In this document: one piece after another, positions 1,997-42,580 of the stretch
Numbering within the stretch: position 1 is the first letter of the stretch
Layout: each line of letters begins with the position of its first letter
Translations under genes and position numbers: made by a program
Source of the DNA: Pirellula sp.
Lineage (GTDB): Bacteria; Planctomycetota; Planctomycetia; Pirellulales; PNKZ01
DNA: 64,000 nucleotides
Direction: 5' to 3'
NCBI GenBank assembly: GCA_013822735.1
Contig: PNKZ01000002.1
Span: 1-64,000, forward strand
The notes under the pieces: generated by a model
Databases searched by the model: none
Seen by the model: only the letters and a program-made list of their open reading frames with translations
Told to the model about the DNA's origin: nothing

Positions 1997-2040
1997 GCAC
2001 CCGCGGACGGCACACGGAGTGTGCCTGCAACTTTGCAAAG

Positions 2041-36371: not shown

Positions 36372-36459
36372 GGGTGGCTGGGGCACAACGAAGTGATGCC
36401 CCAGTTTCCACCACGACGCGGGGCCACTGGGGCATCACTTCGTTGTGCCCCAGCCACCC
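36372..36459. repeat. 88-bp REPIN-like palindromic doublet with perfect 33-bp arms
   Basis: Arms 36372-36404 and 36427-36459 are exact reverse complements with a 22-base spacer. Within each arm CTGGGGCA and TGCCCCAG form a second, local hairpin with an 11-base loop. It therefore has the layout of two REP units in inverted orientation. It may also stop transcription of the upstream minus-strand gene. Confidence 0.75.
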
Positions 36460-39479: not shown

Positions 39480-39528
39480 CGGTTTACTGCGCGGATGTTG
39501 CTCCGATCACCCGTTTTGCTGCGCCGCA

Positions 39529-39796
39529 GTGCGCAATTCCTGCGCGCTTCGCCCGATTGATTTTCCGCGGAGTGCGCACTCGCTCGGGAGACGCGCACTG
39601 CGTCACCGCGCGGAATCCGAAACTTGCGTCATCGACGGCAAATTCGAATCGCAGCCGCGTCGGAAATCGACGTAAGTGCTCGAAACGTGAATCGCCTCCT
39701 GCGCACTCATTTCGACGGTAGTGCGCCCCCTTGTTTCCAAGCGCGCCGACGCGCACTTCCAGGCGGAAAAGTGCGCACCGGCGCGATTTAGTGCGC
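39529..39796. promoter_or_regulatory. Cluster of eight GTGCGC/GCGCAC hexamers
   Basis: Copies start at 39529, 39572, 39593, 39701, 39721, 39751, 39771 and 39791. The last five are spaced 20, 30, 20 and 20 bases, close to whole turns of the helix. Two copies (39572, 39771) are full GTGCGCAC palindromes. This resembles an array of binding sites for a dimeric regulator, but no regulator is identified. Confidence 0.35.
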
Positions 39797-39952
39797 AGGA
39801 CTTACGTCAAATCTGCGCGTCTCGCTGCGCCCGCTGTCGCCGAACGAGAGCAATGGTCGATTACAAGTTGCCAAAGATCACCCCGCACTCTATCGAATCG
39901 GCCGGCCCAATATCCAGGCGATTTTTGGCCGGCTGTGATTTTCTCGGCAAGG

Positions 39953-39981: not shown

Positions 39982-40088
39982 AGTAGTCCGCCACTCCGTG
40001 GCGGAATTAGACTGCGCACCGTCGAAGCAGATTGCCGTCGTCCACACGCTGTGCCAACCGCTTTTCCGCCGCGGAGCGGCCGACTACT
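39982..40088. repeat. 107-bp REPIN-like element, copy 1
   Basis: Both ends, read inward, follow AGTAGTC-[CG]-GCC-x-CTCCG-x-GGCGGA (39982-40005 and the complement of 40065-40088). Each end is itself a hairpin: TCCGCCAC/GTGGCGGA with a TCC loop at the left, one mismatch at the right. The middle (ACTGCGCACCGTCGA) resembles that of the copy at 42475-42580. No coding content. Confidence 0.75.
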
Positions 40089-40095
40089 TTGGCGC

Positions 40096-40134
40096 AAAAA
40101 AAAGCCGCCTCCTCGGCGGGAACGAGGAGGCGGC
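40096..40134 (-). terminator. Strong intrinsic terminator facing left
   Basis: On the minus strand a perfect 12-bp GC-rich stem (arms 40123-40134 and 40104-40115, 7-base loop) is followed by eight consecutive T. There is no minus-strand protein gene upstream, which suggests a non-coding transcript. Confidence 0.75.
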
Positions 40135-40521
40135 GGTGACGGCAATCGGAAACTTTTCCACGAGCGCTTGGCCGGCCGATTTTGCGGCTCCGACCAAGTT
40201 TCGCGGGCGGGTTGCAAGCGGCCGTTCGCAGTATTCGCCGGCCCACCGAGCCCTGACAAGGCGAGCAGGCTTTCCTACGAGTTCCCGTTTGCATCCGACC
40301 GCTGGGTGTTGTCTGCCATGACGAGCCGCAAGCCCTTCTCATCCTCCGTTGCGCCTGAAGTCGGCCGAAGCGCGACTTCAACGCGGTTGAATCTTCTGGG
40401 GGATGTGTCTTCCGGGGCCTAGAAAAGCAAACTGCTTCTCTAGCAAGAAAGGCCTACGTATCACGCGCAGACTCCTCAGCGCGGTTCCGATTGCCCGTTG
40501 AGCGGGCTTCCGAGCAATCTG
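40096..40521 (-). ncRNA. Candidate structured RNA upstream of groES
   Basis: On the minus strand a possible promoter, TTGCAA (40550-40555) with a 16-base spacer and TATCTT (40528-40533), precedes a run of hairpins: 40489-40519, 40464-40483, 40419-40443 (11-bp stem, one mismatch) and 40356-40380 (UUCG loop). The run ends at the T-run terminator. The ~426-nt length is RNase P- or tmRNA-like, but I could not find the conserved sequences of RNase P, tmRNA or SRP RNA. Confidence 0.3.
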
Positions 40522-41028: not shown

Positions 41029-41360
41029 TGCAGCTTCGGTTTCTGCACCCCGAGCTCTGTCGAGAACGCCCTCCGTGGTGTTCCGTGCGATCGGGCATAC
41101 GACCAAACTCCGCAGACACGTCGGCCTCACGGCTCGACGCTCGCCGGAACGCCGCAGAGGGCGTTGCCTACACCTGCCCCAATGGCGAAAATCTCGCCGC
41201 TTCCGTCGCTAGATTGACCGCTCACGAGCGTCCGGCGGTCCGTTACTTCAGGCCGGCTGCCGGGTTAGAATACGGCCAACGTCGGCGATGCGGCGACACG
41301 GATCGGGCCCGCTCGGCCAACCCTCCGCCGACGGTGCATCATCTCACGAGGCCCACGGTC
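41029..41360. other. Spacer between groES and the toroid-protein gene
   Basis: The 332-base spacer has no convincing gene. The downstream frame is open back to 41025, but the extension is low quality and lacks domain content. A promoter for the exported protein probably lies here. I see no repeats. Confidence 0.4.
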
Positions 41361-42476
41361 ATGCTTCGCAGCTCTTTTGTCGCACGTTGTGCGGCGTTTT
41401 TACTTCTGCCCGTTTCCATAGCCGCCTCGGCTCGCGCCGAGGACGCCTCACTTTGGACGAAGCGCGATGCCGCCGTGGCCAAGGCCGCAGAATTTCTGGC
41501 CAAGGCCCAATCGCCCGAAGGGGCCTTTACGCCCGCCGCCGGACCCGCGGTGACGGCGCTCGTAACGGCCGGGCTCTTGAAAAACGGCCGCACGGCGGAT
41601 GACCCCGTCGTCGCCAAGGCATTGAAGTACCTCGAAGGATTCGCCCAAGCCGACGGCGGGATCTATCTGCCGGAGAGCAACCACCGCAACTACGAGACCT
41701 GCATTTCGATCGTGGCGTTTTCCGCCGCCAACACCGACGGCCGCTACAAAAAGCTGCTCGATGGAGCTGAAAAGTACGTGAAGGACTTGCAGTGGGACGA
41801 AGGGGAAGAGAAGACCAAAAGCGATCCCTTCTACGGCGGCGCCGGTTACGGCAAGAGCAAGCGGCCCGACCTTTCGAACACGAGCTTCTTGATCGACGCG
41901 CTGAAGGCGGCCGGTCGCGGCCCGGAAGATGAAGCATTGCAAAAGGCGCTGGTGTTTGTGTCTCGTTGCCAAAACTTGGAGACGGAATTCAACACCACGG
42001 AATTCAGCGCCAAAAATCCCGACGGCGGTTTCTACTACACGCCCGCCGCGGGGGGCACGAGCCAAGCCGGCAAGACCGACCAAGGGGGCTTGCGCTCCTA
42101 TGCGTCGATGACCTACACGGGCCTGAAAAGCATGATCTTCGCCGGCGTAGGGCCGGAAGACCCGCGCGTGAAGTCGGCCGTGACGTGGCTGCGCGGCAAC
42201 TACTCGCTGAAAGACAATCCGGGCATGGGAGACAACGGGCTCTTCTACTACTACCACACGTTCGCCAAGACGCTCGACGCCCTGGGCCAAGAGAAGTTTG
42301 CCGACACGTCCGGCAAGGAACATGCTTGGCGTGAAGAACTGGCCGCCGAATTGGTGAGCCGGCAGAAAGAAGACGGCTCATTCGCCAACTCCAACCCTCG
42401 CTGGATGGAGGGGGATCCGAACCTCGTAACCGGCTACGTATTGCTGACGTTCGCCTATTTGCATCCGGCGAAATAG
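41361..42476 (+). CDS. Exported alpha/alpha-toroid protein (prenyltransferase/squalene cyclase-like repeats)
   Basis: The 371-residue protein starts with a signal peptide (MLRSSFVARCAAFLLLPVSIAASARA). It then has repeated helical units with glycine-rich turns typical of squalene-hopene cyclase/prenyltransferase folds: QSPEGAF, AQADGGIYL, NPDGGFYYTP and QKEDGSFANSN. The catalytic DxDD motif of cyclases is not seen, so cyclase activity is not implied. Planctomycetes encode many such periplasmic toroids of unknown role. A REPIN-like element begins inside its stop codon. Confidence 0.85.
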   Translation: MLRSSFVARCAAFLLLPVSIAASARAEDASLWTKRDAAVAKAAEFLAKAQSPEGAFTPAAGPAVTALVTAGLLKNGRTADDPVVAKALKYLEGFAQADGGIYLPESNHRNYETCISIVAFSAANTDGRYKKLLDGAEKYVKDLQWDEGEEKTKSDPFYGGAGYGKSKRPDLSNTSFLIDALKAAGRGPEDEALQKALVFVSRCQNLETEFNTTEFSAKNPDGGFYYTPAAGGTSQAGKTDQGGLRSYASMTYTGLKSMIFAGVGPEDPRVKSAVTWLRGNYSLKDNPGMGDNGLFYYYHTFAKTLDALGQEKFADTSGKEHAWREELAAELVSRQKEDGSFANSNPRWMEGDPNLVTGYVLLTFAYLHPAK

Positions 42477-42580
42477 TAGTCCGCGACTCCGTCGCGGAAA
42501 TGGATTGTGCGCTGTCGATACCGGTGGATACGTAATCCGTAATGCAAATGCCGATTTCCGCCGCGGAGCGGCGGACAACT
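42475..42580. repeat. 106-bp REPIN-like element, copy 2
   Basis: Ends at 42475-42498 and the complement of 42557-42580 match those of the 39982-40088 element at most positions. Each end is a hairpin: TCCGCGAC/GTCGCGGA and TCCGCCGC/GCGGCGGA with 3-base loops. It overlaps the last two bases of the upstream stop codon. Confidence 0.75.

Follow-up and report, generated by a model that had tools for sequence, protein, structure and literature searches.

Two short repeats of nearly the same length lie in a 64,000-nucleotide stretch of a Pirellula sp. contig (hereafter the window), and they raise the question of whether they belong to a REPIN family, that is, paired and inverted REP hairpins, and which enzyme, if any, would move them. 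A sequence-only reading had proposed this architecture. It had the two places right, with limits that were one flanking base too wide on each side (A...T), and the equal length that it gave them is a near-equality, the copies differing by 1 bp. The inverted ends and the hairpin at each end are present in both copies as it described them, in the form of a GTAG foot, an 8-bp stem and a TCC loop. The features are as follows.

39983..40087, no strand assigned: REPIN1 copy 1, a head-to-head REP pair of 105 bp running from GTAG to CTAC.
39983..40005, plus strand: left REP1 end of copy 1, with GTAG foot, perfect 8-bp stem and TCC loop.
40065..40087, minus strand: right REP1 end of copy 1, with one stem mismatch, C to G.
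42476..42579, no strand assigned: REPIN1 copy 2, 104 bp from GTAG to CTAC.
42476..42498, plus strand: left REP1 end of copy 2, with the compensated stem variant CGCGAC...GTCGCG.
42557..42579, minus strand: right REP1 end of copy 2, its foot decayed to GTTG.

Each window copy has one decayed end, the right one in both.

Across the whole genome the REPIN1 family consists of 29 pairs of REPs, arranged head to head and 102-105 bp long. With copy 1 as the query, 47 strand-matches were found by similarity, and the exact core motif, REP1, occurs 30 times and not at all as its reversed control. When a degenerate end pattern was searched with up to 3 mismatches, 80 matches were found against 11 for the reversed control, so the ends are not a product of chance. 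Most of these matches (57 of 80) belong to the 29 pairs, one of which has an end beyond the mismatch limit of the pattern; 4 are single or half-decayed, and the 19 that are unpaired (1 at 2 mismatches, 18 at 3) come close to the number predicted by the control. One additional right end is cut off where contig 16 begins. The sequence-only reading had made its case depend on a count of paired against single motifs, and would have given way to a family of two copies with no inverted pairing; at up to 3 mismatches doublets outnumber single REPs by 29 pairs to 4 single or half-decayed ends, plus the one at the contig end. The two REPs of a pair are inverted with their feet outside and their spacing fixed, as in a REPIN.

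REP1 is a 23-nt unit made up of the GTAG foot, the 8-bp stem and the 3-nt TCC loop, and its stem behaves as a paired structure. In a comparison of 57 ends, 23 of them distinct (of the 58, one right end, that of copy L055, was excluded for an inserted base), 93.5% of stem cells are paired, and the covariation score of 0.239, against a shuffled mean of 0.109, was reached by none of 500 shuffles and by none of the slid controls, all of which fell below it. Three of the 8 stem pairs have changed on both sides, a number that 45 of 500 shuffles also attain; few pairs are able to covary because the stem sequence is strongly conserved. Compensatory changes include T-A to G-C at the base of the stem and C-G to G-C higher up, in keeping with the general REP format of a GT(A/G)G foot joined to a palindromic hairpin with compensatory change. 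The spacers have a mean identity of 0.54-0.66 by group, against 0.47-0.50 when shuffled, and this likeness indicates that both REPs and their spacer are moved or amplified together. When folded as DNA, only 2 of the 29 copies form the left REP as a separate hairpin by our criterion and most others form one long hairpin, so a two-hairpin substrate is not the ground state; folding into one long hairpin is also reported for Pseudomonas REPINs in the portion of PMC3116915 available.

The search for a RAYT-like Y1 transposase, which the sequence-only reading had suggested, yielded one with REPIN1 on both sides. Eight Y1 matches occur in the genome at E 0.01, one of them below the family cut-off, and REP1 is absent from the fetched loci of the seven others than RAYT1. 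RAYT1 lies outside the window on contig 9 (188310-188954, minus strand), between REPIN1 copies at 188205-188307 and 188956-189058, and encodes a 215-aa protein with PNHVH, FWQ and YIAENP motifs. It matches Pfam Y1_Tnp (PF01797) at 32.2 bits (cut-off 23), and its best NCBIfam family is REP_Tyr_transpos, at 65.6 bits against an equivalog cut-off of 80 that is not reached; as this cut-off is a naming threshold rather than a biological feature, the RAYT call rests on the remaining criteria. All 37 aligned members match REP_Tyr_transpos at E 0.001, and the HUH pair H135 and H137 and the catalytic Tyr195 are invariant in the 37 aligned rows. The best solved structure by sequence is 4er8, E. coli TnpA-REP (E 0.0019 as a single sequence, 9.2e-6 as a profile). 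The same entry is the best fold match of the predicted RAYT1 model (pLDDT 87.7), with Z 14.1 and 2.7 A over 133 residues, the next match reaching 11.8, and ranks top in both Foldseek and VIA-align. By Pfam, by its best NCBIfam family, and by sequence and predicted fold against 4er8, RAYT1 is a predicted RAYT (TnpA-REP), and it is single in its own genome (1 match at E 1e-20).

We propose that REPIN1 is a REPIN population of some 30 copies that a single cognate RAYT gene, RAYT1, maintains, and place the probability of this reading at roughly nine in ten; the 29 inverted pairs of fixed span and the finding of the cognate RAYT bear out the REPIN architecture first read from the window. In this model RAYT1, as an HUH single-strand nuclease, would recognise the GTAG-hairpin ends on single-stranded DNA and cut at the C|T step that is conserved immediately beyond CTAC, so that REPIN1 would be excised and re-inserted in trans. 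Surviving copies would be those in harmless places, namely stop codons and a single slot in a second intergenic repeat. Immediately outside GTAG stands an A at 45 of the 58 ends (14/15 and 12/15 at the two ends of copies outside the composite repeat described below, 6/14 and 13/14 of those inside it), which amounts to a CT step on the strand ending in CTAC, and the third base out is A at all 30 ends of the 15 copies outside. TnpA-REP of E. coli and of S. maltophilia cleaves at CT, as stated in the accessible text of PMC8266576.

The composite repeat is a larger, genus-specific palindromic element, one slot of which is occupied by 14 of the 29 REPIN1 copies. Its order is a leader GGCCGGCCAAAANTYGCCTGGA, a -10-like box (recognised by eye), the slot and a palindromic core; as a family it may be described by the GGCCGGCC leader, the variable slot, and a core with ACTTACGTCGA ends and TGCGCA dyads. 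The leader has 73 matches with up to 3 mismatches (control 1), and 24 of the 30 copies that were aligned have a core of 130 bp, its ends being ACTTACGTCGA...TCGACGTAAGT. A sequence model gave 104 strand-matches in its own genome, at about 53 core-A places, most on both strands, and 10 and 19 matches to diverged versions in two congeners (G004 and G005, respectively); it gave none in a further congener, G006, or in three other genomes of the family. Its own genome holds a type-B subfamily in addition. Repeat loci are L082-L111, L140-L212 and, in the window, a type-B copy about 30 bp from REPIN1 copy 1, with a slot that is without REPIN1:

39520..39952, minus strand: type-B repeat copy, limits approximate and drawn from self-similarity; a neighbour of the REPIN and not part of it.
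39913..39934, minus strand: leader motif GGCCGGCCAAAANTYGCCTGGA with 1 mismatch, belonging to the type-B copy.

Rfam has no match at gathering within the window and only weak sub-threshold matches on the composite repeat, mostly to microRNA families, and a literature search on the repeat found nothing. Covariation of the 130-bp core arms did not distinguish one long hairpin from two local ones. A dif/Xer site is one conceivable reading of the 11+6+11-bp dyads of the repeat, whose arm sequences differ from dif.

The alternative that survives best supposes that this larger repeat was amplified with the REPIN aboard, that there were no separate insertions, and that REPIN1 is now immobile; we think it unlikely, though it deserves to be weighed. 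Slot contents, labelled by hand from reading the slots, are REPIN1 in 13, REPIN2 in 11 and another sequence or nothing in 9 of 33 leader-plus-core copies, a set that excludes leader copies without a core-A match and also the 14th REPIN1 copy (L047), whose leader exceeds the limit of the pattern. On the REPIN tree the copies inside the repeat cluster (6 changes against a shuffled mean of 10.0, with 3 of 500 shuffles as low), as expected of a passenger. On the core tree, in contrast, the REPIN1 label is unclustered (10 changes against a shuffled mean of 10.5, at least 4 of them forced by well supported branches), and 15 REPIN1 copies are located elsewhere; the REPIN2 label requires 5 changes against a shuffled mean of 9.4. 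Both tree patterns could also be mimicked by recombination between copies. To us these data, which are not decisive, suggest that REPIN1 entered one slot repeatedly and that some co-amplification or recombination took place as well. The further idea that an insertion target of the RAYT can be defined, REPIN1 and REPIN2 having repeatedly entered the same slot of a repeat led by a promoter and other REPIN1 copies having entered at stop codons and supplied stops, is one we regard as doubtful.

Stop codons bear most directly on a second alternative, in which REPIN1 is an RNA or regulatory element, either a terminator or a translation-tuning hairpin, that was amplified for its function and has a secondary link to the RAYT. 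Of the 15 copies that lie outside the composite repeat, 9 either adjoin a stop codon or provide one. Counted by ends, 11 of the 30 ends of these 15 copies do so, compared with 1 of 540 points shifted within the same flanks, a contrast inflated by the many shifted control points that lie inside genes. At 8 of the 11 stop-codon ends the first bases of the element form part of the stop (its last base at +1 or +4). The first G of copy 2 completes the TAG stop of the gene ending at 42476, and this gene has the same end codon as its orthologues in three congeners, with or without a REPIN. The available text of PMC12306157 reports that ribosomes stall at E. coli REPs lying no more than 15 nt from a stop, and REPs at gene ends are known in other species (PMC3733652, in the part at hand). 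Nevertheless REPIN1 is absent from the orthologous congener sites, 14 of the 29 copies sit in the composite repeat, away from gene ends, and the RAYT is framed by REPIN1, so that we consider an origin in regulatory function quite improbable; a regulatory role and mobility are compatible and not exclusive. The last alternative, a MITE of an ordinary DDE insertion sequence, whose terminal inverted repeats a DDE transposase would mobilise, would fit dispersed copies of about 105 bp with inverted ends, but it was rejected as very improbable since an 8-bp hairpin and its GTAG foot lie within each end, inspection of the 29 flank pairs by eye reveals no target duplication, and the gene framed by the same ends encodes a Y1 transposase.

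REPIN1 and RAYT1 share the genome with other repeats. A single REP of REPIN2 (GTWGYAGGCACACKCCGTGTGCC) lies at window 2003-2031; this REP has 47 matches in the genome (control 0), and a close RAYT for REPIN2 was not found in this genome. At the start of contig 16 (L079, G000:C16, 1-160) the REPIN1 right end is followed directly by REPIN2-like spacer sequence, and REPIN1 is perhaps nested inside REPIN2 there. A degenerate copy of a third REPIN-like family occupies window 41059-41171, with ends GTAGGGAACGCC-TCC-GTGGCGTTCC, and similar DNA occurs at at least 10 other genome places among those listed. At window 36374-36457 two hairpins with GTGG feet form a perfect inverted pair with arms of 34 nt (GTGGCTGGGGCA...TGCCCCAG); the pair recurs at other loci and is probably a further REP family. 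The GC-rich hairpin with A8 at 40091-40154, a terminator on the minus strand, shows 97-98% identity to its counterparts in two congeners and 83% to that in a third, where neighbouring aligned genes are 67-83% identical; a small RNA adjacent to groES may end here.

Exact REP1 has no occurrence in 6 other genomes of the family, 3 of them congeneric, and 1 among 116 other genomes of the order; REPIN1 is apparently restricted to this species among the genomes searched. The regions orthologous to both window copies in three congeners are without REPIN1, and a clean empty site was not found there; the intergenic DNA is too diverged for the boundaries of REPIN1 to be visible from congeners. The nearest RAYT1 homologues in family genomes are 55-56% identical, from G006, and are framed by GTAG or GTTG REPs with the same TCC loop; their REPINs differ from REPIN1 in a GGCACG/CGTGCC-type stem and a length of about 176 bp. 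A 43% identical homologue in G003 has yet another REP stem. Public genomes supplied 64 relatives, mostly from Planctomycetota and Verrucomicrobiota, with Poribacteria among the remainder. A GTRG hairpin lies within 350 bp of 51 of the 64, compared with 8 of 64 when the foot is scrambled, and 13 have no REP by the criterion used; the commonest loop near them is TCC (114 occurrences). We read this as RAYT and REP seeming to co-vary with foot and loop constant. The REPIN/RAYT interpretation holds because RAYT1 is flanked by REPIN1 and because its relatives carry their own GTRG hairpins. One RAYT homologue (L114, G003:C21:14315-14872) lies in a frame open for 1263 aa that includes helicase/restriction-subunit-like sequence, and is perhaps a RAYT with REPs inserted in frame within a gene.

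The sequence-only reading knew of no such elements in this lineage, and the novelty that this suggested is not supported: the accessible part of Di Nocera et al. (2013, PMC3733652) reports GTAG REPs in the PVC superphylum and, in the planctomycete R. baltica, several REP families, RAYTs, and a wealth of genes for tyrosine transposases that have repeats on their flanks. These systems resemble REPIN1 in GTAG-tagged hairpins, head-to-head dimers and flanking tyrosine transposase genes, within the same phylum, and REPIN1/RAYT1 is apparently a new member of this known class, set beside the 24 families of that paper by description and not by sequence. The REPINs of P. fluorescens, as the available text of Bertels and Rainey (2011, PMC3116915) presents them, are alike in their inverted REP doublet unit, fixed spacing, adjoining RAYT and long-hairpin fold, whereas REPIN1 has about 30 copies and another REP sequence. 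The S. maltophilia REPtron, in the part of PMC8266576 at hand, shares the 23-nt REP with GTAG, 8-bp perfect stem and 3-nt loop, and the CT step; RAYT1 differs from its enzyme as a 215-aa protein with NHVH/WQ/YIAENP motifs. Its nearest subclasses in Table 1 of PMC6006769 are 2.7 and 2.4, neither an exact match.

REPIN1 and RAYT1 add a REPIN/RAYT pair from a planctomycete that is both small and complete, and whose REP is species-specific. As the REP stems of relatives differ while the GTAG foot and the TCC loop stay, the pair is useful for the study of REP-RAYT co-evolution. Furthermore, the clustering of copies at stops and in a single recurring slot could show how REPINs choose their targets or survive there. 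If RAYT insertion does have a definable target here, the dozens of comparable slots that one genome offers, some filled and some not, would allow REPIN target choice to be tested directly.
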